Assembly (NCBI GenBank): GCA_009773205.1
Contig: WPAE01000003.1
Location: 1-64,000, forward strand
Reading direction: 5' to 3'
DNA length: 64,000 bases
DNA from: Ignavibacteria bacterium
GTDB taxonomy: Bacteria > Bacteroidota > Ignavibacteria > Ignavibacteriales > Melioribacteraceae
The position numbers were made by a program, and so were the translations under genes. The notes beneath the pieces were generated by a model that searched no databases, was not told the origin of the DNA, and saw only the letters and a program-made list of their open reading frames with translations. Positions 6,927 to 21,399 of the stretch are shown here, one piece after another (within the stretch, counting starts at the first letter, position 1; every line of letters begins with the position of its first letter).

Positions 6927-6982
6927 TTTACAGATTCTTAACTGACACTTAATTCTTGTGTAATACTGCTCGGCTATTTTTG
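6927..6982 (+). promoter_or_regulatory. Pho-box-like promoter 1 (four 11-bp units plus -7 box)
   Basis: Four pentamers sit exactly 11 bp apart: TTTAC (6927), TTAAC (6938), TTAAT (6949), GTAAT (6960). Ten bases after the last one is TATTTTTG (6975-6982), a perfect TAnnTTTG -7 element. The start codon of the next gene is at 7004. The same layout recurs at four other places in the window. Family knowledge: PhoB-type activators bind 11-bp direct repeats that stand in for a -35 box, and cyanobacterial Pho boxes use TTAA cores. Binding here is inferred. Confidence 0.7.
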
Positions 6983-7003
6983 TATAAACAATTGTGAGAT
7001 GCT

Positions 7004-7213
7004 ATGGAATATAATGTAGGTAACAAAATAAAATATACTTTCCCAATTTCTACAAAAACTAAAGAGCAAGTATTTATAGGTATCGTTGAGTCTGTTGCTT
7101 CTAGCTTCGTAGTTGTAAGGGATATTAATAACATAATTTTAAAAGTAACTTTTAAAAATTTTAATAATATTGAAGTAATTAGTCGGTTGGATCAATGCTC
7201 GGACTCGACATAG
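7004..7213 (+). CDS. small hypothetical protein, Pho-type promoter
   Basis: A 69-residue protein of unknown function, without signal peptide or membrane segment. Alternating hydrophobic stretches (QVFIGIVESV, SFVVVRDI, NIILKVTF) suggest a small all-beta fold. A gene this short would be doubtful alone. It is supported by the Pho-box-like promoter whose last repeat ends 40 bases before the ATG, the same distance as for two other genes here. The ribosome site (GTGAGATGCT) is weak. A second Pho-type promoter follows it, so it may be a single-gene transcript. Confidence 0.55.
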   Translation: MEYNVGNKIKYTFPISTKTKEQVFIGIVESVASSFVVVRDINNIILKVTFKNFNNIEVISRLDQCSDST

Positions 7214-7236
7214 TGAAGCAAATTCAATTTAATTTC

Positions 7237-7292
7237 TTAACAAAAGCTTAATGATTCGTTCATCTTAAGTTAATACACGTTTCTTAATATTG
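7237..7292 (+). promoter_or_regulatory. Pho-box-like promoter 2, before the olsF operon
   Basis: Units TTAAC (7237), TTAAT (7248), TTCAT (7259) and TTAAT (7270) are at exact 11 bp steps. Ten bases later is TAATATTG (7285-7292), one mismatch from TAnnTTTG. The ATG of the first operon gene is at 7316, 42 bases after the last unit, with an AAGGG ribosome site. Confidence 0.72.
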
Positions 7293-7315
7293 CCCAGCAA
7301 TAAAAAAGGGTAATT

Positions 7316-7543
7316 ATGTTTGGGCTCTATTATGCAATTATAGGTTTGGTTTCAGGAGCAATTTGTTCGGTAATTGCTTATAGCAAATATAGAAACCAGA
7401 AAGATTGGTTTACTTTGGGACAAGTTTTACCTGGATTATCAATATTAATTCTACTTTTTCTTTCAAGCAAAAGTGAAGAAAAGAAAAACAAAATAGCCGA
7501 TAACGAAATTTCGGCAAATTCGCTCGTGGATTCCTGGGTTTAA
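7316..7543 (+). CDS. small two-span membrane protein, unknown
   Basis: 75 residues with two hydrophobic segments (about 3-22, YYAIIGLVSGAICSVIAY, and about 36-50, LGQVLPGLSILILLFL). A lysine-rich stretch, KSEEKKNK, follows the second. No family recognised. It has a good ribosome site (AAAAAAGGG) and is the first gene after Pho-type promoter 2. It is in line with the next two genes (11 bases to the next start), so it probably acts in the inner membrane alongside the olsF-like enzyme. Confidence 0.7.
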   Translation: MFGLYYAIIGLVSGAICSVIAYSKYRNQKDWFTLGQVLPGLSILILLFLSSKSEEKKNKIADNEISANSLVDSWV

Positions 7544-7554
7544 GCAGGCATAGA

Positions 7555-7902
7555 ATGTCGCAGATAAACTTTGATATTGTATTATACAGCTCTCCTTACT
7601 TCGAGAATCTTGTTAGTGAACTATATCGTATTAGCAGGTACAAAAGGAATATTTATAAGAAAATAAGAACAGAAGATGAATTCTCTAAAAAACTTTCCAG
7701 CGAGGAAAGGACAATTCTTAAATACCTATCCGAAAAAGAGAACCAAATTTTGATTGAGATATTAGCGAACAAACAATGGTTGATTAAACAAAAAACTGAT
7801 AATTGTGTATTAGGCAAATATGTGCTTAATTCAGAAAAATTTGAACTGCTAACTTCTGTTTACGAAGAGAGAATGTTTCAACAGGATATTAAAGAAATAT
7901 GA
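7555..7902 (+). CDS. hypothetical protein in the olsF operon
   Basis: 115 residues, soluble, rich in Lys and Glu and mostly predicted helical. No motif or family recognised. Its stop overlaps the start of the acyltransferase gene in an ATGA arrangement (7899-7902), which implies co-translation with it. No ribosome site stands out before its own ATG. Confidence 0.7.
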   Translation: MSQINFDIVLYSSPYFENLVSELYRISRYKRNIYKKIRTEDEFSKKLSSEERTILKYLSEKENQILIEILANKQWLIKQKTDNCVLGKYVLNSEKFELLTSVYEERMFQQDIKEI

Positions 7903-9650
7903 ACAACAAAATGAGCGAATTAATTTTCTTGAAAATTAATTTTGGTGAAACATATATTGGGAAAGCGGCAAAGAAAGTAGTGACTGGCATTTTAACCAAA
8001 ATACTTTATCTAAACAGAATCGAAAACTTTATAAAAGCGAATGAACATCTGGATGAGAAACAGTTTATTGGACATTTATTTGATGATCTAAATTTTTCTT
8101 ATTTGATTTCTAGTAGAGACTTTGAAAAAATTCCTTCGCATGGAAAAATTATATGTGTTGCAAACCATCCAATTGGCAGTCTTGATGCACTTTCAATACT
8201 TAAAGCTGTGCTTGAAATCAGAAAAGATGTAAAAGTTGTTGCTAACGAAGTATTGAGTAATATTGAGCAGCTAAGAACAATGTTTATTCCACTAAAACTA
8301 GATTCCAAGCACGCACAGAAGAATGCTATTCTGGCTGTTCAGAAGGCGCTTCACAATGAACAAATGGTTATCATCTTTCCTGCTGCAACAGTATCAAGGC
8401 TTAATGGAATTAAGATAACCGATTCCAGATGGCATAAAGGTGCAGTCCATTTTGCCAAAAGATTTTCGGCGCCAATTCTGCCTGTATTTATTGAAGCGAG
8501 AAACTCTTTTCTGTTTTATTTTACTTCTATTGTTAGCAAAAAATTATCTACATTTTTGCTGGCTCACGAGCTTTTTAACAAAAGAAATAAAACTATTCAA
8601 TTAAAAATTGGGGATGTAATTCCTGCCAAAGTATTCACAGCCTCGATCATTGATGAGAATTATCAAACGATGCTGCTGAGGAAACATGTTTATCTTCTAG
8701 GCAAAAATAGAAAAGGAATTTATTCGACAGAGAAGAATGTGATTCACCCTGTGGACCGCAAAGCTATTAAACTTGAACTTGCAAGTTCCCGGCTGCTTGG
8801 AATAACACATAACAATATGAAAATTTATTTAACTACCAAAATCGAATCCCCCCAGACCGTAAATGAAATTGCAAGACTAAGAGAATTAACATTTAGAAAA
8901 GTTGGTGAAGGTACCGGAAGAAAATTAGACATTGATAAGTTTGATTCTCATTATTCGCATTTAGTAGTTTGGGATGAAAATGAACTTGAGATAATTGGGG
9001 CTTACAGAATTGGTTCGGGTAATTATATTATGGATAAAATTGGTGAAAACGGATTTTATACCTCTACACTTTTTAATTTTAGTAAAGATTTTAGTTCCGG
9101 TTATTTAAAAGACTCAATTGAACTTGGAAGAAGCTTTGTTCAAAGCAAATATTGGAACTCTAACGCCTTGAATTATCTTTGGCAGGGGATTGGGGCGTAT
9201 TTACAACACTATCCATCCGTAAGATATTTGTTTGGCGGCGTTAGTATAAGCAATAATTATCCTAATTCTGCAAAAGAAATGATTATAACATACTTTAACA
9301 AATGGTATGGTTACAATAACGGGTTGGTAGAATCTAAAAGAAAGTTTGTTATGTCTGAAGCTACTCACGCCGAGTATTTTAGTATGTTTGTTGGCGAGAG
9401 TGCAAAAGATGATTATAGAATTCTGAAGACTATGTTAAAACCATTAGGATTTAAAGTTCCAGTTTTATATAAACATTATTCGGAATTATGCGAAGCTGGC
9501 GGAGTTAAGTTTCTTGATTTCGGTATTGACCCCGATTTTGAAAATTGTGTAGATGGATTAATTCTTGTTGACATAAGTTTAATCAAGGAAGAAAAAAAAC
9601 AAAAGTTTATTGCTTCAAATTCTTTTTCAATATTAAGAGCTACGGCTTAA
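7899..9650 (+). CDS. olsF: bifunctional acyltransferase, OlsF-like ornithine lipid synthase
   Basis: 583 residues with two fused acyltransferase domains. The N-terminal part (about 75-260) is a PlsC-like lysophospholipid acyltransferase domain, with the His/Asp motif in NHPIGSLDAL and a later FPAATVSR block. The C-terminal part (about 310-540) is the GNAT-like domain of OlsB-type proteins, with LRELTFRKVGEGTG, ELGRSFVQSKYW and YLFGGVSISNNYP. This order matches OlsF, in which the GNAT half N-acylates ornithine and the PlsC half adds the second acyl chain. Ornithine lipids contain no phosphorus and replace phospholipids during phosphate starvation in several bacteria, which fits the Pho-type promoter. 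Substrate is inferred; another amino acid is possible. Confidence 0.72.
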   Translation: MNNKMSELIFLKINFGETYIGKAAKKVVTGILTKILYLNRIENFIKANEHLDEKQFIGHLFDDLNFSYLISSRDFEKIPSHGKIICVANHPIGSLDALSILKAVLEIRKDVKVVANEVLSNIEQLRTMFIPLKLDSKHAQKNAILAVQKALHNEQMVIIFPAATVSRLNGIKITDSRWHKGAVHFAKRFSAPILPVFIEARNSFLFYFTSIVSKKLSTFLLAHELFNKRNKTIQLKIGDVIPAKVFTASIIDENYQTMLLRKHVYLLGKNRKGIYSTEKNVIHPVDRKAIKLELASSRLLGITHNNMKIYLTTKIESPQTVNEIARLRELTFRKVGEGTGRKLDIDKFDSHYSHLVVWDENELEIIGAYRIGSGNYIMDKIGENGFYTSTLFNFSKDFSSGYLKDSIELGRSFVQSKYWNSNALNYLWQGIGAYLQHYPSVRYLFGGVSISNNYPNSAKEMIITYFNKWYGYNNGLVESKRKFVMSEATHAEYFSMFVGESAKDDYRILKTMLKPLGFKVPVLYKHYSELCEAGGVKFLDFGIDPDFENCVDGLILVDISLIKEEKKQKFIASNSFSILRATA

Positions 9651-9807
9651 GCTTTTAAAAAAATTATTACTGCCCACCAAAAAGTTCGTATGAAAAAGCA
9701 AATTTAATTAGCTGAATACTTCCTGCTTGCTGTAGCCAGTAGTAAACAAAGTATAAATAGAAGCGCCTGTCGAAGTAATTTTGCCATAATATTCCCATTG
9801 TTATAAT

Positions 9808-10065
9808 GGGCGCCTCTAAAAACTTTTGTTTTAACCCAAATTTTCCATTAGGAAAACCTGCCTGCGGTAGGCAGGTTTGCCATACGGGCCGACAAGCCCG
9901 CCTGCTACGGGCCGACAAGCATTAAGCCATTTATAGTAAATAACTTATGTAAGATTTTTAATTTATAAAGACAATTAAAATCTTACCATGCTTGTCGGGG
10001 TTAACCCCGTCCCGATTTTCGGGACGGAAAGCCCACAAAGGAAATTGATATTTTTAGAAGCGCCC
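9808..10065. mobile_element. mini-element A, composite copy carrying element B
   Basis: Begins with GGGCGCCTCTAAAAA and ends with TTTTTAGAAGCGCCC, near-perfect terminal inverted repeats. It is flanked by a 4 bp direct repeat TAAT (9804-9807 and 10066-10069). Inside, the left arm of A runs to TTTTAA at 9834, then element B sequence follows, then the right arm of A (GAAAGCCCACAAAGG...). Intact outer ends and their own target duplication show that the loaded element moved as a unit. No open reading frame. Confidence 0.82.
9835..10015. repeat. mini-element B nested in element A
   Basis: Starts CCCAAATTTTCCATTAGG, as do the copies at 10076 and (reverse strand) 59286. It also contains CGACAAGCATTAAG, ATTTATAGTAAATAACTTA and CTTGTCGGGGTTAACCCCG in the same order. 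It follows TTTAA (9830-9834), the 5 bp that reappears on the other side of the B copy at the window start. The right end of B is missing here. Confidence 0.75.
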
Positions 10066-10075
10066 TAATATTAAG

Positions 10076-10323
10076 CCCAAATTTTCATTAGGAAAGGACC
10101 GCCAAGTCCGCCAAACCATCCATAAAACGGCGGACAAGCCCGCCTGCTGCAGGCATTAAATCATTTATGAGCCTACTCTATAAAGCCATGATCATTATTA
10201 AAAAATTTTGTTTTCGACTTTAAATCGTAACCAGATATTGTCAAAATGACCTTTCCTGCCCGCTATGTTTGGTCTAAAGAGGCATGCGGGTTAGATTCGG
10301 CTCATTTATAGTAAATAGCTTAT
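10076..10323. repeat. mini-element B, copy interrupted by element C
   Basis: CCCAAATTTTCATTAGG begins at 10076 and the B-type core CATTAAATCATTTAT ... AGTAAATAGCTTA continues after an insertion at 10169-10303. The other B copies (about 9930 and 59240) show the uninterrupted CATTTATAGTAAATA, so they serve as empty-site controls for element C. Confidence 0.72.
10169..10303. mobile_element. mini-element C, 135 bp form
   Basis: Begins GAGCCTACTCTATAAAGCC and ends GCGGGTTAGATTCGGCTC. The ends are imperfect inverted repeats (10 of the first 12 bases match). It is flanked by 6 bp direct repeats ATTTAT (10163-10168, 10304-10309). The target is mini-element B, whose uninterrupted copies carry a single ATTTAT. 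No coding potential. Confidence 0.82.
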
Positions 10324-10337
10324 GAGCATCTCTAATA

Positions 10338-10380
10338 ACTGTCATTCTGAATCCGCTTTAGCGGATGAAGGATCTTCGTT
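10338..10380. repeat. short hairpin repeat
   Basis: GTCATTCTGAATCCGCTTTAGCGGAT... forms an ATCCGCT/AGCGGAT stem, followed by GAAGGATCT. It resembles dispersed palindromes found in many genomes of this group. No second copy is in this window, so the repeat status rests on general knowledge. Confidence 0.4.
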
Positions 10381-10620
10381 TAGCTTTTAGAAAGAAAAAT
10401 GGAGATTCTTCCCGCAAGGCAGGGCTTGTCAGAGTTCGGCATCCCGATTTGCTACAAAATCGGGACAGTTTCTAATCAATTCTTTTTGTTAAAGCCCCTT
10501 CTGCCTAAGGAAGGGAATTTTATTATGGTTGTGTGGCACTGTTGCAATGTCGGAGATAATTGCATTGCACTTACTCACAACAACAAATGGCTCTTTAACA
10601 CGCGCAAGTGTTAAGAACTG

Positions 10621-11523
10621 TTAACCAACTAACTTTTGAGAATTTCTGAATTTGCGCATCTTAGTTAGGTTTTTCATTTCCTCTGTGTATACTTTTTTTT
10701 TGCCGTCGCCCAGTGCTTTTTCAATGTCTCTTATATTTTTAACAAGCTGAAACATTCCATTCACTTCAACAGACGCAGCCTGATCAGTTCCCCACATAGC
10801 CCTATCAAGTGTAATATGTCTTTCCACAAAGGCTGCTCCTAACGCTACAGCTGCTAATGTGGGCGCAAGTCCTGTTTCATGACCGCTGTATCCGATAGGG
10901 ATGTTGGGGTACAGCTTCTTATAAGTCTCAATCATCTTTAGATTTAATTCATTTTCTTTGCATGGATAACTAGAAGTTGACTGAGCAAGAAGTAAATTTT
11001 TTTCCCCAAGCGTATTTACTGCTACTCCTATTTCTTCCATTGTGGACATACCGGTTGAAAGCATTACAGGTTTATTTGTTGATTTGATCTTAATAAGCAA
11101 ATCTTCGTCTGTTAAAGTAGCCGAAGCTATTTTGTAGGCAATCGGATTGAACTGTTCAATAAACTCAACTGACTCCTCATCCCACGCAGAAACAAACCAG
11201 TCTATTCCTTTATGTTTGCAATACTCATCTATCTGCTCATATTCGGAAAAACCAAACTCAATCTTATGCTTGTATTCAAGATAAGTGATTCTTCCCCAAG
11301 GAGTGTCTCTTTCCATTTTCCACTGGTCTTGAGGAACACATAGCTCTGGAGTTCTCTTTTGAAACTTTACAGCATCGCAGCCGGAAAATACGGCCCCATC
11401 AATTAATTTTTTTGCTAAAGCAAGAGAACCATTGTGATTAATTCCAACTTCGGCAATAACATATACAGGTTCATCTTGACCTATGAACCTTGACCCTACT
11501 TTTACTTTTGCACTCATAACCAT
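10621..11523 (-). CDS. N-acetylneuraminate synthase family protein (NeuB-like), lacking a SAF domain
   Basis: The 300 residues form a NeuB-type barrel that condenses phosphoenolpyruvate with an amino sugar: YVIAEVGINHNGS, CDAVKFQKRTPE, YKIASATLTDEDLL, PVMLSTGMST, QSTSSYP, IGYSGHETG and VERHITLD. It ends about 40 residues after the barrel (EEMKNLTKMRKFRNSQKLVG), without the C-terminal antifreeze-like SAF domain of full NeuB (about 345 residues). No other sialic-acid-like sugar genes are beside it, so the exact product is unknown. It has its own Pho-type promoter on the minus strand and is divergent from a metallophosphoesterase. Confidence 0.85.
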   Translation of the reverse strand: MVMSAKVKVGSRFIGQDEPVYVIAEVGINHNGSLALAKKLIDGAVFSGCDAVKFQKRTPELCVPQDQWKMERDTPWGRITYLEYKHKIEFGFSEYEQIDEYCKHKGIDWFVSAWDEESVEFIEQFNPIAYKIASATLTDEDLLIKIKSTNKPVMLSTGMSTMEEIGVAVNTLGEKNLLLAQSTSSYPCKENELNLKMIETYKKLYPNIPIGYSGHETGLAPTLAAVALGAAFVERHITLDRAMWGTDQAASVEVNGMFQLVKNIRDIEKALGDGKKKVYTEEMKNLTKMRKFRNSQKLVG

Positions 11524-11539
11524 CTCCTTGTTTGCAAAG

Positions 11540-11595
11540 CAAATATCGTATCAGAGTGTTATCTCACAATTAATCTATCGTTAATAAATTGTTAA
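11540..11595 (-). promoter_or_regulatory. Pho-box-like promoter 3, before the NeuB-like gene
   Basis: On the minus strand: TTAAC (11595-11591), TTAAC (11584-11580), TTAAT (11573-11569), ATAAC (11562-11558), at exact 11 bp steps. Ten bases later comes GATATTTG (11547-11540), one mismatch from TAnnTTTG. The ATG is at 11523, 35 bases after the last unit. Confidence 0.7.
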
Positions 11596-11611
11596 AAGTG
11601 ATTTGGTTTTA

Positions 11612-11667
11612 TTTATTGTTTGTTAATCTTGTCTTAATAATCTGATAACATTGCAAAACTAAATTTT
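11612..11667 (+). promoter_or_regulatory. Pho-box-like promoter 4, before the metallophosphoesterase
   Basis: Units TTTAT (11612), TTAAT (11623), TTAAT (11634) and ATAAC (11645) are at 11 bp steps, followed by 10 bases and TAAATTTT (11660-11667), one mismatch from TAnnTTTG. The ATG is at 11689, 40 bases after the last unit. It lies back to back with promoter 3 and 16 bases from it. Confidence 0.68.
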
Positions 11668-11688
11668 CTTATACTTTTTTGAGAAGCC

Positions 11689-12594
11689 ATGAGAATTGCA
11701 CATTTTTCAGATTTGCATTTATGCTCGAATTTCAAAAAGAGCAATAGAAATAAGATTAAAGAGGTTCTTGATCATGCTCTAGAAAACGGAGCTCAACATT
11801 TTGTGTTTACAGGTGATATTACCGATAATGCAGAAGAAAGAGAATTCGTGTATTTCAGAGAACTTTTGCAGAGCTACAATTTGCTTAGCAGTGATAAATC
11901 TACAGTTATCATAGGAAATCACGATATTTTTGGCGGACCGCAGACAGCGCAGGATGTTGCTAATTTTCCTTTTAAATGTCTCAATATAAACTATCAGGAG
12001 AGGGTCTCTAAGTTCGTTTCTTACTTTCGCGAACTTTTTGAAAACACAATTCATCCGCACGAAGAAATATACTTCCCATTTGCCAAAGAGCTAAAGAGCG
12101 TTGTATTAGTTGGATTAAATTCTATTGATGAATATTCTCCTTTCAAAAATCCATTTGCTTCCAACGGAAAAATTGGTAAAATTCAAAGAAGAATTGTTGA
12201 GAACCTTCTATTACTTCCAAAGTTCAAGGATAAGCTGAAGATTGTTTTAGTTCATCACCACTTTTATCATAAATCTGATATATCCAAAAGTTCGGAAAGC
12301 AGTTTATGGAGTAAAATAGAAAGCTTTACAATGAAACTCAGGGGTAAAAAGAAATTGATAAACTTATTTGAAGCGAACGATGTAAGTATTGTATTGCATG
12401 GTCACAGTCACGAAATGTGCGAATATTTCCGTAAGAAAATAAGATTTGTGAACGCAGGTGCCTCTATGGAAGGTAATGAACCATCATACTTCTTGATTGA
12501 TGCATTTCCTTTTGATGTAAGTGTGAGTTTACAAAAATTTTCTGTAGCAAAAGAAAAATTTGCTGAAGCGGAAATTGCCTCCATAGCTGTTTAG
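11689..12594 (+). CDS. calcineurin-like metallophosphoesterase
   Basis: 301 residues of the two-metal phosphoesterase family. All metal-binding blocks are present in order: IAHFSDLHLCS, FTGDITD, IIGNHD, LVHHHFYH and LHGHSH. There is no signal peptide or membrane segment, so it is probably cytosolic. The substrate (cyclic nucleotide, nucleotide or phospholipid headgroup) cannot be read from the sequence. The upstream Pho-type promoter suggests phosphate scavenging or turnover of phosphorylated compounds. Its stop overlaps the stop of the convergent PstS-like gene by 4 bases. Confidence 0.88.
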   Translation: MRIAHFSDLHLCSNFKKSNRNKIKEVLDHALENGAQHFVFTGDITDNAEEREFVYFRELLQSYNLLSSDKSTVIIGNHDIFGGPQTAQDVANFPFKCLNINYQERVSKFVSYFRELFENTIHPHEEIYFPFAKELKSVVLVGLNSIDEYSPFKNPFASNGKIGKIQRRIVENLLLLPKFKDKLKIVLVHHHFYHKSDISKSSESSLWSKIESFTMKLRGKKKLINLFEANDVSIVLHGHSHEMCEYFRKKIRFVNAGASMEGNEPSYFLIDAFPFDVSVSLQKFSVAKEKFAEAEIASIAV

Positions 12595-13424
12595 TCTAGT
12601 GAGTAATTAAACAAAGCGTAAAATCCTTCTTCTTCAATAATGTTTTGTCCTTTAGGGCTCAAAACCCAGTTAATAAATTTTTTAATTTCGTCTTCAGGCT
12701 GCTTCAAAGTGTACAAGTGCAAATATCTCGAAAGTGGATAATAGCCTCGTAGTACGTTTGTACTGTCGGGAGAAATATTTTCGATAGACACTATTTTGCA
12801 ATTAGAATTTTTTACGAAACCAGAAAAAGTTATCGAGTAAATATCGTTTGCAACTGCTTGCTGCAGGCTTTCGTTTGAATTAAACTGCTTTGATGAACTA
12901 ACGAACTGCTCATTTTCTAAAACTAATTTCTGAAAAAGCTGCAGTGTGCCGGATGTGCCGTTTCTTAGGTAAACATTTATGGGGTTATCTATCCATCCAA
13001 GCTCGTTCCAATTGGTAATTTGCCCTAAGAAAATTTTCTTTATCTCTTGTATTGTTAGAGATTCAAGAGGATTATCTCTATTTACATAAATGCAAAGAGC
13101 GTCTTTTGCTATTGAAGTGGAAACGCCTATTGACCCGTATTTATCCGAAACTAATTTAATTTCCTCTGGCTCTAAGTTTCTTGAAGCAGTTGAAATCATT
13201 ATTTCGTTTGCAACTAATGCTTTAAATCCTGCTGCAGTTCCTCCAGCTTCAACTACAAAATTTATTTTGGGATTTTCCTTTGAATACTCTAATGCTAATC
13301 TATTTGTTAGAATAAGCATCGTTTCCGACCCTTTAATTTTAATCACTACTTTATCGTTATAAAGAAAAGTACATCCGCCTGCAATCATTAATGTTAGATA
13401 TAAGAAAAATTGTTTTCTTTTCAC
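12591..13424 (-). CDS. PstS-like phosphate-binding lipoprotein
   Basis: 277 residues. The N-terminus MKRKQFFLYLTLMIAGGC ends in a lipobox, so the protein is probably a lipid-anchored periplasmic protein. The rest is a PstS-type binding fold: IKGSETMLILTNRLA, GGTAAGFKALV, TASRNLEPEE, ITNWNELG and RNGTSGTLQLF. It is a paralogue of the protein at 19781-20614, which has the phosphate-loop sequence GGGSGTG where this one has GGTAAG, so its ligand could differ. The GTG start overlaps the M28 peptidase stop (GTGA), so the two are translated together. Confidence 0.87.
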   Translation of the reverse strand: MKRKQFFLYLTLMIAGGCTFLYNDKVVIKIKGSETMLILTNRLALEYSKENPKINFVVEAGGTAAGFKALVANEIMISTASRNLEPEEIKLVSDKYGSIGVSTSIAKDALCIYVNRDNPLESLTIQEIKKIFLGQITNWNELGWIDNPINVYLRNGTSGTLQLFQKLVLENEQFVSSSKQFNSNESLQQAVANDIYSITFSGFVKNSNCKIVSIENISPDSTNVLRGYYPLSRYLHLYTLKQPEDEIKKFINWVLSPKGQNIIEEEGFYALFNYSLD

Positions 13425-15064
13425 TTTAATCTCTTTTGAGAAAGTATTCTAGCATATCTAAAAGGTGAATTAAAATTCCATTCCGGTTTATTCTCTGAGT
13501 TTACAAGTTCATCAATCACGCCAAAAATAAAATCTATGTGTTGTTTTACTGCATCATAATTTATTGTCTGTGTCAGGTCATCAAAAGGAGAGTGATAAAT
13601 GTTTCTTGCAAACTCAATCAACTTCGCGATACCTTCTTCGCTGCTGATATTTTCGTAATCTGTTCCTTCCGTAATTAGAATAGAAGGTATGCCGGCTTTG
13701 GCAAATGAAAATTGATCTGATTTTGCGAATGAATTTTCTCTCTTAAATTTTTCTGAAATTTCAGTTCGCTTAAGTCCTCGTATTTCTGCTGCATTATTTA
13801 CAAAACTTTGAATACTGGAAAACTCTGCTCCGAGAGCCACGTACGATTTGAATCTGTCATAAGAAGCTATACCATCTATGTTTATGTTAGCAACAGTTTT
13901 GTAAAGAGGAAGAATTGGATTTTGTATATAATACTCAGACCCAAGCAAACCGTACTCTTCCGCAGTAAGCAGAAGGAAAATAATTGAGCGTCTTTTATAA
14001 TAAGCTGTATCCGAAAACACTCGTGCAATTTCTAATAGTGCAGATACTCCGGCAGCATTATCAAATACGCCATTATAAATTGAATCACCTTTTACAGCCG
14101 TGCCAATTCCAAGATGATCGTAGTGTGCGCTTACAATAACATAAGTGTCTTTGTGATTTGCATCATCACCTTCAACTATCCCAATAATATTTGGGCTTAC
14201 AAAATCTCTTTGCTTAAAACTGCCTTGAAAAGTTAGAAGTCCGTTCAGCGGGAATGATTTCACTCTAGTGCTACTTTGCATTTCTAAAAGTTCATTCAGT
14301 GTGTAACCGCTTCCGGTAAAAAGCAGTCCGGCAATTTGAGGATTAATTATAATATCGAAATTAGTTGAAGGTGAAGTTGCTAAGGTTAAATTCTCGAAAG
14401 AAAAATCATGCACGGCTTTTTCCCAATCATCACTTTTTATATTTGAGTAAAGTGGAATTAAAATACTTCCTCTTGCGCCGCGTGAAAGAGCAATCCTCTG
14501 CTTGGATTCCGGTAAACTATATATTGAAGGTAAAGCTCCATTAAAATAATCTGGGTCTTCAGAGTATGGCTCCCCATCTAAGAAAACAACAATTTTTCCT
14601 TCTACATCTAAATCATGATAATCATTATAATCAAATTCCGGCGCAGAAATTCCATATCCTGCAAAAACCATTGGTGTTTCATTCGGAATAAATACAGGGT
14701 TGTTGGTATTATACATTAAGAAATCTTCTTTTAATCTGAACCCGATTGCTTCGCTTCCAAAACGGATGTTCAGCTTCGAATTGTAAAGCGCTTTACTTCC
14801 ATGGAAAGGAATGTGTTGATAATATTTTGTCTTGCTGCTAAACTGCTTTAGATGAATCTTTGCAAATTCATTTGCTAAGTATTTAGCCGCAAGATTTCCG
14901 CCGGGCGTTCCGGGCGCTCTTCCTTCTAAACTATCGCTGCCAAGTTTACTTAGATGTTGAGTAAATAGTTTCATATCGAACATGCTGGTTTTAAGTGCTT
15001 CTTGAGCATGCAGATAATAAAAAGCACCTAAGAGAGCTATTAGTATTTGTATAATTGCTTTCAC
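13421..15064 (-). CDS. M28 family zinc peptidase, secreted
   Basis: Exported aminopeptidase-like enzyme. Metal and catalytic blocks are visible: VSAHYDHLG, YNGVFDNAAGVSALLEIAR, LLTAEEYGLLGSEYY and ILITEGTDYEN. A PA-type insert (about residues 120-300, with FAGYGISAPEFDYNDY and GKIVVFLDGEP) lies before the catalytic part. I choose the GTG at 15064 because it opens a clean signal peptide (MKAIIQILIALLGAFYYLHA) with a GGAAG ribosome site. The longer frame to 15163 begins with TTG inside the Pho-type promoter of the neighbouring gene. About 547 residues. It is co-translated with the PstS-like lipoprotein. Confidence 0.87.
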   Translation of the reverse strand: MKAIIQILIALLGAFYYLHAQEALKTSMFDMKLFTQHLSKLGSDSLEGRAPGTPGGNLAAKYLANEFAKIHLKQFSSKTKYYQHIPFHGSKALYNSKLNIRFGSEAIGFRLKEDFLMYNTNNPVFIPNETPMVFAGYGISAPEFDYNDYHDLDVEGKIVVFLDGEPYSEDPDYFNGALPSIYSLPESKQRIALSRGARGSILIPLYSNIKSDDWEKAVHDFSFENLTLATSPSTNFDIIINPQIAGLLFTGSGYTLNELLEMQSSTRVKSFPLNGLLTFQGSFKQRDFVSPNIIGIVEGDDANHKDTYVIVSAHYDHLGIGTAVKGDSIYNGVFDNAAGVSALLEIARVFSDTAYYKRRSIIFLLLTAEEYGLLGSEYYIQNPILPLYKTVANINIDGIASYDRFKSYVALGAEFSSIQSFVNNAAEIRGLKRTEISEKFKRENSFAKSDQFSFAKAGIPSILITEGTDYENISSEEGIAKLIEFARNIYHSPFDDLTQTINYDAVKQHIDFIFGVIDELVNSENKPEWNFNSPFRYARILSQKRLK

Positions 15065-15156
15065 AACTGTAGAACTTCCAAAGTCCTCATTTTTTGCATA
15101 ACAACTTATAAATGCTGAAAAAAACAAACAAACATCTTTTAACAAGATAATAAAAC

Positions 15157-15212
15157 TTAACAATTATTTAACGCAGCTTTAACTTTCTGTTAATACGCGA
15201 AATCTAAATTCG
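15157..15212 (+). promoter_or_regulatory. Pho-box-like promoter 5, before the TonB receptor
   Basis: The best of the five arrays: TTAAC (15157), TTAAC (15168), TTAAC (15179) and TTAAT (15190), exactly 11 bp apart. Ten bases later is TAAATTCG (15205-15212), one mismatch from TAnnTTTG. The ATG of the receptor gene is at 15248, giving the longest leader of the five (54 bases from the last unit). Confidence 0.75.
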
Positions 15213-15247: not shown

Positions 15248-18043
15248 ATGCGCAACGAATCAACCAAGAACTACACGAATAGTTCTTACAAATTTATCTG
15301 CACGTTTTTATTAATAATGTTTTCGTTCATAGGCAACACAGTTGCACAGCAAAAAGGCTCGATAAGCGGGAAAATTACCGATAAAACTAACAACGAAGAA
15401 TTAATTGGCGCTAGTGTTTTAATTGTTGGAACAACAACAGGTGCTTCAACAGATTTAGATGGAACTTTTTCTTTAAGAGGACTGGAAGCCGGGACTTACC
15501 AGTTACGGGTTTCTTACATTTCTTATCAGACCACATTAATAAATGATGTAGTAGTTAAAACCGGACAAAACAGCATCGTAAATATTCAGTTAGTTCCTTC
15601 AACAACAGAATTAAATGAAGTAGTTGTATCTGCCGAAGCATTGAAAGCAACGGAAGCTTCTGTTCTCAACATACAAAGAAACTCCTTAAATATTGTGGAT
15701 GGACAAAGCGCCGAACTGATAAGTAAAAACAATAGTTCGGATGGCACAGATGTATTGAAGCGCATGACAGGAGTAACAATTTCTGATGGTAAATACGCTT
15801 TCATACGCGGTGTTGGCGATAGATATAATAACACGATGCTAAATGGTTCCAACCTGCCAAGCGCTGATCCGGAAAAGAGAACTTTCGCTTACGACATGTT
15901 CCCTGCGAGCTTGATGGAAAATGTTCTTACTTCAAAAACATTTATACCAGATAAACCGGCAGACTTTACAGGCGGTTTGGTAGAAATTAACACCATAGAG
16001 TTTCCATCAAGATTCATTCTCGATTTAAGTTTATCAACCGCGTATAATTCTAACACTACTTTCAAACCCTTCAATACTTACATTGGCGGAGGAAAGGATT
16101 TTCTTGGTATTGATGACGGAACACGCAAACTGCCTTCGACAGTAAACAGTAATAAAGTTACTAAAGCAGCTTACAGCAGTGAACAGCTCCAAGCTATAGG
16201 TTTATCTTTCAATGATAATTGGCAGACAAAAAGATTAAACGCACCAATCAACTCAAGTTTTAGACTAAACATTGGCAATCAAACGGAATTTGAAGAAAGC
16301 AAACTTGGTTACATTGGCTCTTTAACTTATTCAAACTCGGCAGAAAACAAAGAACTGAATCAAGCATCTTATACATTTGAAGGACCTCGATTTGAATATG
16401 CCGGCAATAACTATAATATTAATGTTAACTGGGGTGCGCTTTTTAATGTAAGCTACAAAATTGGAAAAGCTCACAAGTTCAGCTTAAAGAATGTTTACAA
16501 TAATACCAGCGATAATGAGACAACTACTTACGAAGGTATTTACAATTACACACAGCAAATAAGAAGAGTAACAGCTCTTAGGTTTGTTTCAAGATCTTTA
16601 CAATCGCATCAGTTAATTGGTGAGCATCATTTTGCATTGTTAAGAGGTTCGCGGGTTGATTGGAATATAAACTTTGCGGCATCTGAACGAAACGAACCTG
16701 ATGCAAGAAGATACATCTATGCAAGAGGAATTGAAGAGACAAACCAGCCATTCAAATTTTTACTTGATCAATCAATTACCACTCGTTATTTCGGCAATTT
16801 AGATGATAAATCTTATGGAGGCAATTTTAACATAAAGATTAATCCTTTCGATAACGCAGCTTTGCCTTCATTAAAATTTGGATACACTTTCGATAAAAAG
16901 GAAAGAGATTTTATAGCTAGAATTTTCGGATTCAGAAATAATCCAGGCGGCAATTTCTTAGAGGAAGAGAAAACGCTTGTGCAATCGGTAGATAAAATTT
17001 TTACGCCGGCAAATATTAATCCAACATTTATAGAGATTATTGAAGTTACCCAGCCTACAGATAGCTATACATCGGACCAATCAATTTCTGCTGCTTATGT
17101 AATGACAGATTTTCAACCAGTTAAAAACATAAAAATTATTACTGGTGTTAGATATGAAAAATCAAAGCAGAACTTGTATAGTAAAACTAGAACAGGAGAA
17201 GCAGTTGAAGTACGCTCAAACTATAATGATTTGTTCCCAAGTGTAAATCTTATAATCGAAGCTACGGAATCTATCAATTTCAGATTAGCTTACAGCAGAA
17301 CAACTGCACGCCCCGAGTTTAGAGAAATAGCGCCTTTTACTTATTTCGATTTTGTTCAAAACGAGTTAGTTATAGGCAATACTAATCTTAAAAGAAGCTT
17401 GATTACTAATTACGATGTTAGATTTGAATATTATCCGGCTCCAAAAGAATTGCTTGCAGTTAGCGCCTATTATAAAAAATTTACCGATCCGATTGAGCAG
17501 GTACTCCTCTCATCTTCTTCCTTTGAACCGCTAAGATCTTACGATAATGCAAAAAGTGCAAACAATTTTGGAGTTGAGTTCGAAGCTAGAAAAGCGCTTG
17601 AGTTCTTATCAACTTCGCTATCAGATTTTTCATTCATTGGCAACCTTGCTTTGATTGATTCTAAAATTGAATTGAAGGATACTGGATTTCAAATTTCTGA
17701 ACGTCCGCTTCAAGGACAAGCTGATTTTATTCTTAATGCTGGCTTATACTACGAAGGTTTTGATAACGGTTACACAGCATCCATTATATATAACAAAGTC
17801 GGGCAAAAAATTGCAAAAGTTGGCTTTGCTAACTTAGGTGATGTTATCGAAAAACCTAGAGATCAAATTGATTTGTCTTTCTCAAAGAAAATATTCAATT
17901 CTCTCAATCTAAAATTTGTTGTTAAAGATTTACTTGCGCAGAACTACAAGTTCATTCAAAAAACTCCGAATGGAGATAAAGTTTCCGAGTTGTCGAAAAA
18001 AGGTCAAACTATTACGCTCAGCTTATCATATAAACTAAACTAA
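15248..18043 (+). CDS. TonB-dependent outer-membrane receptor
   Basis: 931 residues. A signal peptide (hydrophobic core about residues 17-32, ending NTVAQQ) is followed by a carboxypeptidase-regulatory-like beta domain (about 36-120, GKITDKTNNEELIGASV ... GTYQLRVSYISYQT). Then come a plug domain (about 140-270, GTDVLKRMTGVTISDGKYAFIRGVGDRYN) and a long beta barrel. TonB-driven transport across the outer membrane is expected. There is no SusD partner. The next gene is 26 bases on and encodes a T9SS-exported protein, followed by pstS and phoU. Together with the Pho-type promoter this suggests phosphate or a phosphate ester as substrate (inferred). Confidence 0.92.
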   Translation: MRNESTKNYTNSSYKFICTFLLIMFSFIGNTVAQQKGSISGKITDKTNNEELIGASVLIVGTTTGASTDLDGTFSLRGLEAGTYQLRVSYISYQTTLINDVVVKTGQNSIVNIQLVPSTTELNEVVVSAEALKATEASVLNIQRNSLNIVDGQSAELISKNNSSDGTDVLKRMTGVTISDGKYAFIRGVGDRYNNTMLNGSNLPSADPEKRTFAYDMFPASLMENVLTSKTFIPDKPADFTGGLVEINTIEFPSRFILDLSLSTAYNSNTTFKPFNTYIGGGKDFLGIDDGTRKLPSTVNSNKVTKAAYSSEQLQAIGLSFNDNWQTKRLNAPINSSFRLNIGNQTEFEESKLGYIGSLTYSNSAENKELNQASYTFEGPRFEYAGNNYNINVNWGALFNVSYKIGKAHKFSLKNVYNNTSDNETTTYEGIYNYTQQIRRVTALRFVSRSLQSHQLIGEHHFALLRGSRVDWNINFAASERNEPDARRYIYARGIEETNQPFKFLLDQSITTRYFGNLDDKSYGGNFNIKINPFDNAALPSLKFGYTFDKKERDFIARIFGFRNNPGGNFLEEEKTLVQSVDKIFTPANINPTFIEIIEVTQPTDSYTSDQSISAAYVMTDFQPVKNIKIITGVRYEKSKQNLYSKTRTGEAVEVRSNYNDLFPSVNLIIEATESINFRLAYSRTTARPEFREIAPFTYFDFVQNELVIGNTNLKRSLITNYDVRFEYYPAPKELLAVSAYYKKFTDPIEQVLLSSSSFEPLRSYDNAKSANNFGVEFEARKALEFLSTSLSDFSFIGNLALIDSKIELKDTGFQISERPLQGQADFILNAGLYYEGFDNGYTASIIYNKVGQKIAKVGFANLGDVIEKPRDQIDLSFSKKIFNSLNLKFVVKDLLAQNYKFIQKTPNGDKVSELSKKGQTITLSLSYKLN

Positions 18044-18069: not shown

Positions 18070-19701
18070 ATGAAGTTATTATCGAAAGTACTTGTTTTAC
18101 TACTATTATTTATTGGAACTCTTTCTGCTCAAGAGGCTTTGAGCGGAAATATTACAGCCAATACAACTCTAACATCCAATAAAACTTATGTACTAAAAGG
18201 AATTGTTAGAGTTATGTCTGGCGCTACTCTTACTATAGAACCGGGAACAACTATTTATGGCGAGGCGTCCTCTCAGGGTTCTTTAATAATTAAACCTGGC
18301 GCTAAGATTATGGCAGAAGGAACCGTGGATAAACCAATTGTATTTACAAGCGAATTTACAAAGCCGGGCTCAACCAAAGCACCTAACTACGGAGACTGGG
18401 GCGGAATTATAGTATTAGGGAATGCGCCGGTAAATGTTCCGGGCGGCAAAGCGCTAATTGAAGGACCCGGCGATGAATACGGCGGAACTGTTGTTGATGA
18501 TAACAGCGGCGTGCTGAAGTATATGAGAATAGAATATCCTGGTATTGCATACTCACTTAACAACGAAATAAATGGATTAACCTTTGGCGGCGTAGGCAAC
18601 AAAACTTTGGTAGAATATATCCAGGTTAGTTATTCTGGCGATGATTCTTTTGAGTGGTTTGGCGGTACAGTAAATGGTAAATACCTTATTGCTTACCGTG
18701 GCTGGGATGATTGTTTTGATACAGACTTTGGATACAATGGCAAGTTACAATTTTTACTTTCTGTAAGAGATCCTCAAATTGCAGATCAATCATCATCAAA
18801 TGGATTTGAAAGTGATAACGATGGAAGTGGTTCAACAAACTCTCCAAGGACAAGCCCAACATATTATAACGTAACATTAATAGGACCTGCTGCTGTAAAG
18901 ACTTCCGCATATAATTCTTTGTTCAGAAGAGGAATGCACTTAAGAAGATCATCACAAAACAAAATTGCAAATGCTTTAATAATGGGCTGGCCGGATGGTG
19001 TTCTGATAGATGGAACCAATGCAGTAGCAGATATGAAGAGCGGAACAACAGCATTCATAAAGAACAGCATAATAGCCGGTTCAGTACTCGGTGATTTCAA
19101 ATCAACAGATGCATCATTCCAAGCAGAAATGCCAGCTTGGTTTACTGCTCAAGGCGGCAGAACTTTTGCAACTAATGCAGAAGTAAATTTAATTGATCCT
19201 TTTAATCTTGCTAAGCCAAACCCAATGCCAAAATCAAATTCGCCGGTATTTACAGGCGCTGCAACTCCACCTTCAGATGGATTTTTTGATACTTCTGCTA
19301 GGTTTGTTGGAGCTTTTGGTTCAACAAACTGGGCTGATAGATGGAGCAGTTTATCTTTTACGGGAGTAAGCGTTGAAGAAAACGGCAGTGCATCTATCCC
19401 TACTAAGTTTGAATTGAGCCAGAACTATCCGAATCCGTTTAATCCAACAACAGCTATAAGTTACAAGGTACAAGTGCCAAGCCACGTAACACTTAAAGTT
19501 TACGATGTTTTAGGAAGAGTAGTTGCAACATTGGTTGATGAATTTCAACAAACAGGCATTTATAATTCTCAATTCTCAATTTCGCGCCTCGCTGGACGCG
19601 AGTCGGAGCGGGCCAATACTCAATTAAGCTCCGGTGTTTATTTCTACCAACTTAAAGCCGGAAGTTTTACTTCGACAAAAAAAATGAATTTGTTGAAGTA
19701 G
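18070..19701 (+). CDS. secreted protein with T9SS sorting domain, beta-rich
   Basis: 543 residues: signal peptide (about 1-20, LLFIGTLSAQ), a repetitive beta-rich body (about 25-430: TSNKTYVLKGIVRV, GATLTIEPGTTIYG, NYGDWGGIIVLGNAP, FEWFGGTVNGKYLIAYRGWDD), and a C-terminal type IX sorting domain. The sorting domain begins at FELSQNYPNPFNPTT and ends SSGVYFYQLKAG...KKMNLLK. It is probably exported across the outer membrane and cleaved or anchored by PorU. No enzyme motif is seen; pairing with the TonB receptor suggests a surface capture partner. An 11-codon GC-rich in-frame insert (19582-19614) interrupts the sorting domain. Confidence 0.85.
   Translation: MKLLSKVLVLLLLFIGTLSAQEALSGNITANTTLTSNKTYVLKGIVRVMSGATLTIEPGTTIYGEASSQGSLIIKPGAKIMAEGTVDKPIVFTSEFTKPGSTKAPNYGDWGGIIVLGNAPVNVPGGKALIEGPGDEYGGTVVDDNSGVLKYMRIEYPGIAYSLNNEINGLTFGGVGNKTLVEYIQVSYSGDDSFEWFGGTVNGKYLIAYRGWDDCFDTDFGYNGKLQFLLSVRDPQIADQSSSNGFESDNDGSGSTNSPRTSPTYYNVTLIGPAAVKTSAYNSLFRRGMHLRRSSQNKIANALIMGWPDGVLIDGTNAVADMKSGTTAFIKNSIIAGSVLGDFKSTDASFQAEMPAWFTAQGGRTFATNAEVNLIDPFNLAKPNPMPKSNSPVFTGAATPPSDGFFDTSARFVGAFGSTNWADRWSSLSFTGVSVEENGSASIPTKFELSQNYPNPFNPTTAISYKVQVPSHVTLKVYDVLGRVVATLVDEFQQTGIYNSQFSISRLAGRESERANTQLSSGVYFYQLKAGSFTSTKKMNLLK
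19582..19614. repeat. in-frame GC-rich hairpin insert in a sorting domain
   Basis: A 33-base GC-rich stretch in an otherwise AT-rich gene, containing CTCGCTGGACGCGAG (5 bp stem). It adds 11 codons between FSI and NTQLSSGVYFYQL. Without it the domain reads like other members of the family. The GH16 gene has a comparable insert near 60335-60369. Confidence 0.5.
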
Positions 19702-19711
19702 TTTCTCTCTC

Positions 19712-19755
19712 AAATCATTGGGCGTCTTTCGTGAGGCGCCCAATGATATTTATGT
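19712..19755. terminator. hairpin between the T9SS protein gene and pstS
   Basis: ATCATTGGGCG and CGCCCAATGAT form a perfect 11-bp stem around an 11-base loop. No T run follows, so it is not a standard intrinsic terminator. It may weaken read-through into pstS, or protect the 3' end of the upstream message. Confidence 0.5.
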
Positions 19756-19780
19756 AAAGAAATTGTTAAGGAAAATGTAT

Positions 19781-20614
19781 ATGAAGAAATATCTGTTGGT
19801 AATAGCTGCTTTGGTTTGTTTAACCGGGTTTTTCTCTCCAGAAGAAACTATAACTGTTAAAGGTTCCGATACAATGGTAATTCTTGCCCAACGTTGGGCA
19901 GAGCTATTTATGAAAGAAAATAAGAATGTTATTATACAAGTAACAGGCGGCGGTTCTGGAACCGGAATAGCAGCTTTGATAAACGGCTCAACCGATATAT
20001 GTAATTCATCCCGCCCAATGAAACAGAGTGAAAAAGAAAAACTAAAAGATAAGTATGGAACTCCAGGAGTTGAAATTAAAGTTGCTGTTGATGGGCTCAG
20101 CCTTTATGTAAACAAAGCAAATAAAAAAATAGCTGAGCTTACACTCGAACAAATAAAAAAAATCTATCAAGGGCAAATCACAAATTGGAAGGAAGTGGGC
20201 GGTAACGATGCAAAGATAATTATTTATGGTCGTGAAAATAGTTCCGGCACTTATGTCTATTTCAAAGAACACGTGCTTGAAAACCAAGACTTTAGTTCTA
20301 CATTACAAAGTCTTCCGGGGACAGCAGCAGTTGTTAATGCTGTAAGCAAAGATAAAAATGCAATTGGTTTTGGCGGTGCTGCTTATGCTAAGGGTATTAA
20401 AGATATAGCAGTTAAAATTGATGCAAACTCTAAAGCATATCTGCCTGCAAAGAAATTTATCGAATCAGGTGAGTACCCTATTTCTCGGTACTTATACATG
20501 TACACAAAAAAGAGACCAGAAGGAAATATTAAAAAATTTGTTGATTGGATTTTAAGCGATAAAGGGCAGAGCATTGTAACGGAAGTTGGCTATTTCCCAT
20601 TAAAGAAAAAATAA
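19781..20614 (+). CDS. pstS: phosphate ABC transporter substrate-binding protein
   Basis: Periplasmic phosphate-binding protein of about 277 residues. After the signal peptide MKKYLLVIAALVCLTGFFSP come VKGSDTMVILAQRWAE, GGGSGTGIAALINGSTDICNSSRPM, ITNWKEVGG and the phosphate-contact block YGRENSSGTYVYFKEHVL. I start it at 19781 and not at the upstream in-frame ATGs (19718, 19775), because an AAGGA ribosome site lies about 8 bases before and the signal peptide then has normal length. phoU follows after 10 bases. The permease and ATPase genes pstCAB are not in the window, so this protein works with a transporter encoded elsewhere. Confidence 0.92.
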   Translation: MKKYLLVIAALVCLTGFFSPEETITVKGSDTMVILAQRWAELFMKENKNVIIQVTGGGSGTGIAALINGSTDICNSSRPMKQSEKEKLKDKYGTPGVEIKVAVDGLSLYVNKANKKIAELTLEQIKKIYQGQITNWKEVGGNDAKIIIYGRENSSGTYVYFKEHVLENQDFSSTLQSLPGTAAVVNAVSKDKNAIGFGGAAYAKGIKDIAVKIDANSKAYLPAKKFIESGEYPISRYLYMYTKKRPEGNIKKFVDWILSDKGQSIVTEVGYFPLKKK

Positions 20615-20624
20615 GGAACTTCTT

Positions 20625-21399
20625 ATGCCTCATCAATTTGGTTTTGGTATGGAAGAACTTAAAGCTAATCTAACTCTAATGTCTTCGCTTGTTAATCATC
20701 AGGTTCAGCAAGCAGTTAATTCGCTCACACGTGCGAGCAGCAATATCTACAAAGAAATAAAATTAAAAGATGATGAAATTGATGCCTTCGATGAACTGCT
20801 TCAAGTTCAGTGCGAAAATATGTTTGCTCTCCAGCAGCCAATAGCAAATGACCTTCGATTTGTAATCACCTCTTTAATGATCAACAATCAGCTTGAACGA
20901 TGCGGAAATATTTCTGTTAGTATTGCCAACCGGACTAAAAAGATTAATGCACATAAAAATTTGATATTGGAAAGTGGCATAGTGGATATGGCTAAAGAAG
21001 CGCATAAAATGATTAGCCAAGTTATCGAAGCGTTCCTCAATTCCAATTTAGAGTTAGCAAACAATGTTATTGTAAAAGATGATAAAGTTGATGAACAGAA
21101 TTCTTTAGTGGGCGCCTCTAAAAATATCAATTTCCTTTGTCCCGCTTTGCGGGATGAAATATTTTAAAACAAAAGTTTTTAGAGGTGCCCTAGTGTTTAA
21201 CTACGTTACTCAAAAAATGAAATCTGAAACTAATCTTGTAGACCCGTTGGCGTACATACTTATTCTTGCAAGACAAATTGAACATCTTGCCGACCACGCC
21301 GCTAACATTGCAGAGCATGCACTATTTCTTATGGAAGCAAAAGCTGCTTTGCCCAGACAAGTTGCGACCGTGAAGTTAAACTCTACACAATCAAACTAA
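20625..21399 (+). pseudogene. phoU: PhoU phosphate regulator, split by mini-element A
   Basis: PhoU regulates the Pst transporter and the PhoR kinase; its loss usually leaves the Pho regulon on. The N-terminal part (about 162 residues) shows the PhoU pattern: KDDEIDAFDELL, ALQQPIANDLRFVITSLMINNQLERCGN and a second VKDDKVDEQ. At 21110 an 81-bp mini-element enters, flanked by TAGT. The frame then stops at 21165-21167. The C-terminal part (FNYVTQKMKSETNLVDPLAYILILARQIEHLADHAANIAE) continues in another frame to 21399. Removing the element and one TAGT joins the halves in frame as EQNSLVFNYVTQ, about 229 residues. Confidence 0.9.
21110..21190. mobile_element. mini-element A inserted in phoU
   Basis: 81 bp with terminal inverted repeats GGGCGCCTCTAAAAA and TTTTTAGAGGTGCCC (14 of 15 match). 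It is flanked by the 4 bp direct repeat TAGT (21106-21109, 21191-21194). The added 85 bp shift the frame. An ATG at 21154 inside the element opens the C-terminal phoU fragment. Confidence 0.9.

Follow-up and report, generated by a model that had tools for sequence, protein, structure and literature searches.

In Bacillus subtilis, the PhoP box consists of four TTAACA-like repeats above the −10 element. Five arrays in a window very probably from Stygiobacter (the whole stretch of 64,000 nucleotides (nt) analyzed here, C61:1-64000 on contig WPAE01000003.1) appear alike in core, number and period of the repeats. Stygiobacter belongs to the Ignavibacteria, which count as Bacteroidota in the GTDB sense. 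The arrays very probably are Pho boxes fused to sigma-A promoters, and as such the on-switch of a phosphate-shortage response.

Escherichia coli PhoB binds 11-nt direct repeats in a head-to-tail manner (PMC4415409), and its sites are known to keep a distance of 10 bp to the −10 box (PMC1906773). The 10-bp spacer highlighted in a preliminary description of the window is an instance of this rule. The window shares with the E. coli PhoB promoter the 11-nt repeats, the 10-bp distance and pst as a target. It differs in its core, which is TTAAC and not CTGTCAT, in the number of subsites, four at every one of the five promoters, and in the TAnnTTTG box of Bacteroidota. The cyanobacterial SphR Pho box, CTTAACCT, is built from at least three 8-bp repeats with a 3-bp linker (PMC1906773), and has the same TTAAC core and 11-bp period. 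In contrast to SphR, the arrays here have four repeats, a fixed distance to TAnnTTTG and, in the wider set of sites, mostly A(A/T)T and not CT after TTAAY.

Inside the Bacteroidota, the nearest published motif that we found is the TTTAACA of Riemerella anatipestifer PhoP, derived by DNA affinity purification sequencing from 583 peaks and likened to that of ArcA (PMC9603813). There, a Bacteroidota regulator of the PhoB/PhoP family is placed on a TTTAACA motif, for which no four-repeat or spacing rule was found. In Bacteroides fragilis, pst is PhoB-dependent and PhoB binds a 512-bp pstC promoter fragment; the words "motif" and "consensus" do not occur in the main text of that paper (PMC3547664). 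No title or abstract setting out this layout as the Pho-box architecture of Bacteroidota was found in the open-licence literature, which is a weak absence.

Anatomy of the arrays and a candidate promoter model

Each window array (starts 6927, 7237, 11595 on the minus strand, 11612 and 15157) consists of four TTAAY-like pentamers at 11-bp steps, followed after 10 bp by a TAnnTTTG-like box. Array A (6927..6982, plus strand) reads TTTAC/TTAAC/TTAAT/GTAAT, then 10 bp and TATTTTTG, with a predicted start at about 6987; an orthologous array is present in the relative G001. Array B (7237..7292, plus strand) reads TTAAC/TTAAT/TTCAT/TTAAT, 10 bp, TAATATTG, with a predicted start at about 7297. Array C lies on the minus strand (11540..11595; TTAAC/TTAAC/TTAAT/ATAAC, 10 bp, GATATTTG; predicted start about 11535). 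Array D (11612..11667, plus strand; TTTAT/TTAAT/TTAAT/ATAAC, 10 bp, TAAATTTT; predicted start about 11672) is the weakest of the five, and array E (15157..15212, plus strand; TTAAC/TTAAC/TTAAC/TTAAT, 10 bp, TAAATTCG; predicted start about 15217) is the best.

When every position of the window was scored on both strands, these arrays took ranks 1 to 5, with scores of 23–25 out of 26, which confirms the four-repeat design first described for the five promoters; the next best score, 21, overlaps one of the same five regions. The −7 box matches 5 or 6 of its 6 fixed bases at all five sites, and the start codon follows the last pentamer by 34–53 bp, close to the 35–54 bp given before. With direct repeats at an 11-bp period, well above the minimum of two, the arrays have the form of a Pho box. 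Their core is TTAA(C/T), and a CTGTCAT core of the E. coli type is absent from them. The earlier characterization as PhoB-type 11-bp direct repeats, with a TTAA core unlike that of E. coli and a Bacteroidota −7 box, is well supported by these features.

The definition of the TAnnTTTG box was taken from PMC9723704 and PMC7366714, and the former places it at −12 to −5. This puts the array of four subsites at about −60 to −23, where it would cover the place of a −33 element. Promoters of B. fragilis carry a TTTG near −33, an element that was not found in Flavobacterium johnsoniae (PMC7366714). In the frequency table of 54 array sites there is no TTTG consensus at about −33; the third repeat and its tail stand there. 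We propose that, under phosphate shortage, a phosphorylated PhoB-type regulator occupies the 11-bp repeats in head-to-tail order, ending 10 bp before the −7 box, and that the bound regulator takes the place of the upstream element in bringing sigma-A RNA polymerase to the promoter.

Recurrence, spacing and co-occurrence with PhoB-type proteins

The genome of the window (4.14 Mb, 476 contigs) was searched with a pattern scan allowing up to 3 mismatches, in place of the matrix scan proposed earlier. It yielded 8 matches, corresponding to 7 distinct sites, whereas the reversed pattern and patterns with the repeat step altered to 12 or 10 bp gave none in this genome. Two sites lie outside the window, at C132:153899 and C152:69569. 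At least seven promoters of this genome carry the array, namely those of a porin-pstSCAB-phoU cluster, the TonB receptor-T9SS-PstS-phoU-PhoB2 run (T9SS, type IX secretion system), OlsF, a PlcP-like gene, a NeuB-like gene, the sugar/cytidylyl operon on C132 and a 69-aa open reading frame (ORF). Like described Pho boxes, the arrays are therefore found upstream of pst and other phosphate genes. The prediction that pstCAB would have an array too, again with a 10-bp spacer, holds at C152. A phosphate regulon, as proposed from the window, is supported by the pst, PstS, OlsF and TonB genes behind the arrays, but its supposed local extent is not, given the sites on C132 and C152.

Together with 38 relatives, the genome formed a set of 39, in which the pattern at step 11 gave 109 matches against 8 in the reversed control; part of this count comes from one array matched in several overlapping registers, or from plain tandem repeats. 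Matches occurred in 32 of the 39 genomes, and the five sites as a local oddity are ruled out by these and the own-genome matches. At step 12, there were 19 matches (39 in its own reversed control) and at step 10 there were 9 (6 in the control), so chance matches do exist at 3 mismatches in these AT-rich genomes.

The spacing can be read independently of the box when arrays are sought by their four repeats alone (up to 1 mismatch, 39 genomes) and the box is then measured at each distance. Counting boxes in which 5 or 6 of the 6 fixed bases are right, one stands at spacing 10 in 54 of the 99 distinct arrays found in this way, and at each of the other 44 spacings (range 0–44) in only 0 to 4 of them. 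Perfect boxes number 25 at spacing 10 and at most 2 at any other. The distance to the −10/−7 element is that of a Pho box, and chance is ruled out as its origin by this peak, as the preliminary description had surmised from five sites. Nineteen of the 99 arrays lie inside a stop-free frame of at least 150 codons, and the box accompanies 5 of these compared with 49 of the remaining 80.

Conservation was assessed in eight orthologous comparisons, of all five window promoters with G001 and of three with G003. Fixed motif positions are identical in 194/208 cases, the bases between repeats in 108/160, the spacer in 48/80 and the upstream sequence in 79/160. This looks like a selected binding site with a spacer that is fixed in length and free in sequence.

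The arrays are also tied to the presence of a PhoB-type regulator. At a threshold of E 1e-40 or better, 35 of the 39 genomes have a PhoB-type protein. A full-pattern match was found in 32 of these 35, and in none of the four without (G007, G024, G026, G030; p = 0.0004 for 0/4 if genomes are independent, the four lying in two families).

More distant support comes from 61 genomes of Flavobacterium, the genus of a genome (G224, Flavobacterium limnosediminis) with an array at locus L154. The full pattern at 2 mismatches was present in 8 of them (11 matches, 2 in the control), and the two promoter-near repeats with the box, searched exactly, in 10 (10 matches, 0 in the control); the far repeats are weaker in this genus. 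From the Flavobacterium-group locus set, covering 19 of 21 loci, nine downstream genes were scanned, and these comprise four PhoU_div/DUF47, three PstS-type and one MauG-like (CCP_MauG) gene, and one with no Pfam hit. The gene behind the L154 array is PhoU_div as well. Phosphate depletion of F. johnsoniae raises a MauG-like gene in a PhoX context (FC 9.58), PlcP (8.59) and PhoB (3.06), as well as several TonB receptors and T9SS-domain proteins (PMC8115612; FC, fold change, is the heading of the table column, whereas the text speaks of log2FC). Since 53 of the 61 genomes lack a full match and the array of the MauG-like gene is rich in TTAAT, these data back, but do not define, a Flavobacterium Pho regulon.

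Regulators, dialects and rival readings

Two PhoB-type proteins, 61% identical, are encoded in the genome, one in the window (PhoB2, 21622..22308, plus strand, closing the array-E run) and one at C304:27464-28144. The latter gene is followed by that of a histidine kinase of 338 aa, while no histidine kinase was found beside PhoB2 at its locus. The PhoB models are the two best matches of both regulators. The recognition helix of PhoB2 reads RTVDVHLLNVRKKL, and that of E. coli PhoB RTVDVHIRRLRKAL. In the genome of the window, G001 and G004, the PhoB2 helix follows RTVDVHLL(N/K)(V/I)RKKL, whereas 9 of 12 PhoB-type proteins examined, including the C304 protein, have RT(I/V)DVH(V/I)RKIREKL. In a tree of 12 PhoB-type and 2 CopR-like rows, the three PhoB2 proteins group together with moderate support (85/89).

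Four genomes (G006, G013, G028, G038) have a single PhoB-type match each, with a C304-type helix, and carry arrays, which makes the C304-type protein the better candidate reader. The preliminary description, which assigned the arrays to the product of the gene at 21622, was thus right in seeing a PhoB-like protein there, but this is one of two, and seemingly not the better candidate. Because PhoB2 belongs to an array-headed run in its own genome and in G004 (array, TonB receptor, T9SS protein, PstS, PhoB2), it is probably Pho-driven itself. At two further loci, L206 (G012) and L230 (G025), an array, in G025 with 3 mismatches, is followed by a PlcP-like and then a PhoB-type gene, which suggests that these relatives place their PhoB gene, too, in the Pho regulon.

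The exact pattern was also scanned for in genome contigs of 84,980 species, one genome per species, as a sample without control and not a census. It occurs in at least 120 stretches; among the matches listed, 117 are from the Bacteroidota group, 2 from proteobacterial metagenome-assembled genomes and 1 from another bacterium. The three outside Bacteroidota look doubtful. L117 consists of near-perfect 11-bp tandem repeats and, like L064, has no gene call behind it, and L131 precedes a DAHP synthase gene. Downstream genes were called behind 114 of the 121 exact matches listed (7 had no downstream ORF; proteins cut to 350 aa). By Pfam, among the matches listed, 39 of them are OEP efflux genes and 24 SulP permeases (63 together), followed by CarbopepD_reg_2 (TonB-receptor type, 16), Porin_O_P (6), PBP_like_2 (3), response regulators (2) and PhoU_div (1). 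In relatives and in named genomes, arrays precede TonB-receptor, Porin_O_P, PstS-type and OlsF genes.

The scaffold alone does not mean phosphate, as it also stands before OEP and SulP genes. That all its matches are phosphate promoters is ruled out by these genes, by their regulator-kinase neighbors and by the bases around the core. Repeats of the efflux/SulP class are TTAAC in 14/248 cases and have a T before the next TTAA in 162/186, compared with 96/156 and 8/117 in the phosphate class (among the matches listed, with sets chosen by hand by gene family; of the 57 exact sequences that belong to neither the efflux nor the SulP group, 18 are unclassified, and the phosphate set includes weak members such as L105, which has no Pfam hit). 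There is one scaffold with at least two dialects, TTAACA-type and TTTAAT. Two TTTAAT-class loci were examined. At L049, a Pedobacter locus, the OEP gene follows a response regulator and a histidine kinase, and at L073 the SulP gene follows a histidine kinase. The L049 regulator is nearest to a heavy-metal model (242 bits, cut-off 279). From the position of these genes we infer that CopR-like proteins read the TTTAAT dialect, which probably belongs to other two-component systems. In Pedobacter, a TTTAAT-dialect array at L056 stands before a response regulator gene, again with a heavy-metal model as its best match below cut-off, and BLAST puts L143 together with L056. Two exact arrays are separated by 2.4 kb in Pedobacter hartonius (G234:C23:567584 and 569997).

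These loci raise the question whether another regulator of the OmpR/PhoB family, for example a CopR-like one, reads the window arrays as well, the phosphate genes being incidental. The number of OEP and SulP genes and their two-component neighbors speak for it. However, the window arrays are of another dialect, with 10 of 20 repeats ending in C and a preceding T in 3 of 15 cases, one array precedes pstSCAB, and the full match is absent from all four PhoB-less genomes, which renders this reading very unlikely. Runs of TTAA arising by chance in a window of 35% GC are hardly conceivable as an explanation. The non-zero controls of the 39 genomes would speak for them, but the own-genome controls are zero, the spacing peaks at exactly 10, the motif is conserved above the spacer, and the gene context is that of phosphate.

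Another possibility is that the canonical PhoB has its own regulon and that the local one is governed by PhoB2 alone. The altered recognition helix of PhoB2 and its place at the end of the array-E run favor this, as does the distribution of an A after the second repeat, which is found in 0/13 arrays at the PhoB2 locus and in 34/46 elsewhere, and which the TonB-receptor and PlcP-like arrays of G006, a genome without PhoB2, do have. The 13 arrays, however, are not independent, as they represent five promoters from three genomes; G004 has PhoB2 and yet the A in its TonB-receptor array; and G006, which lacks PhoB2, still has arrays at its orthologs of the TonB-receptor and PlcP-like genes. We consider such a separate regulon unlikely.

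Several observations weigh against Pho boxes as the identity of the arrays. Both PhoB-type proteins miss the PhoB equivalog cut-offs (PhoB2: NF053854 227.7/270, TIGR02154 207/296.2; C304 protein: 238.5/270 and 221.4/296.2). Three genomes (G009, G014, G020) have a PhoB-type protein and no match. When presence is set at 200 bits, matches occur in 31/34 genomes with and 1/5 without a PhoB-type protein, the exception being G022 with one 2-mismatch site, and PhoB-less G007 and G030 each hold one repeats-only array without box. In a sample of 198 genomes from the phylum, only 19 contain the pattern when 1 mismatch is allowed (28 matches, 1 in the control), some in the TTTAAT dialect, and thus the exact form is not universal; and it is the identical scaffold that precedes OEP and SulP genes. 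The NeuB-like gene and the C132 operon have no established phosphate role. In Flavobacterium, the array of the MauG-like gene (L260) is not of a clear Pho dialect, and the Porin_O_P gene (OprP) of the F. johnsoniae phoBR operon is not induced by phosphate depletion (FC −1.3; PMC8115612).

The Pho-box reading would provide a computable rule for phosphate-controlled promoters in Bacteroidota, and predicts a regulon of TonB-linked uptake and ornithine-lipid remodeling in the little-studied Ignavibacteria; the TTTAAT dialect on the same scaffold is a warning for its use. What surprises most is that a single scaffold is split into dialects, and that a second PhoB is probably Pho-driven. Speculatively, Bacteroidota might share one rigid activation scaffold for OmpR/PhoB-family regulators, in which four subsites of 11 bp extend from about −60 to −23 and stop exactly 10 bp short of TAnnTTTG. 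The flanks of the TTAA core would then decide on the reader, PhoB for the TTAACA type and CopR-like proteins, perhaps others, for the TTTAAT type. To this, Stygiobacter could have added a Pho-driven second PhoB, whose altered recognition helix tunes or shifts the reading of its own locus. We regard this wider scheme as tentative.

Genes behind the arrays

Array A is followed by a small ORF of 69 aa (7004..7213, plus strand). Behind array B lies a likely operon (7316..9650, plus strand) of a 75-aa ORF (7316-7543), a 115-aa ORF (7555-7902) and OlsF (7899-9650), a bifunctional ornithine-lipid synthase (NF052615, 700.7 bits, cut-off 620). Array D precedes a calcineurin-like phosphoesterase (11689..12594, plus strand), homologs of which lie behind arrays at L018 and L036; we call it PlcP-like by context only. 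Next to it, on the minus strand, are a PstS-type phosphate-binding protein (12591..13424; TIGR02136, 206.9 bits, cut-off 206.6) and an M28 peptidase (13421..15163) without an identified array of its own. The listed start of the M28 ORF is a TTG within array E. Its G001 homolog aligns from residue 50 only, and therefore the true start probably lies some 50 codons inside the ORF.

The likely array-E operon begins with a TonB-dependent receptor (15248..18043, plus strand), whose homologs stand behind arrays in relatives. On the same strand follow a protein with a T9SS sorting tail (18070..19701; TIGR04183 over cut-off), a PstS-type phosphate-binding protein (19718..20614; TIGR02136, 268.3 bits, cut-off 206.6), a phoU-type gene in two pieces (20625..21342; TIGR02135 positions 7-157 and 163-210) and PhoB2. 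Behind the C152 site, a gene with a weak Porin_O_P match (21.9 bits, cut-off 20.9) comes first, then PstS, PstC, PstA and PstB, all four above their NCBIfam cut-offs. A phoU gene that exceeds the TIGR02135 cut-off follows in the same orientation.

Array C precedes a NeuB-family synthase (10621..11523, minus strand) that is below the NeuB and PseI equivalog cut-offs. In G006, an ORF of 250 aa stands between the array and the NeuB gene. The C132 site (L237) precedes a Glyphos_transf-like gene, a CMP-Kdo-like cytidylyltransferase, two transketolase halves, a 118-aa ORF and an aminotransferase. The NeuB-like synthase and this operon, both preceded by Pho arrays, might make a surface glycan or glycolipid that spares phosphate.

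The two pieces of the local phoU are separated by an inverted-repeat element of 81 bp with 15-nt inverted ends (21110-21190). The counterpart in G001 is an unbroken ORF of 221 aa, and the genome of the window keeps an intact phoU on C152. The 15-nt arm matches the window at 155, 2246, 9808, 10051, 10324, 21110, 21176, 22387, 55129 and 55211 (up to 3 mismatches, with 2246 and 10324 at 3). As 10 matches compare with 1.98 expected, the element likely belongs to a family of repeats in this genome resembling miniature inverted-repeat transposable elements.

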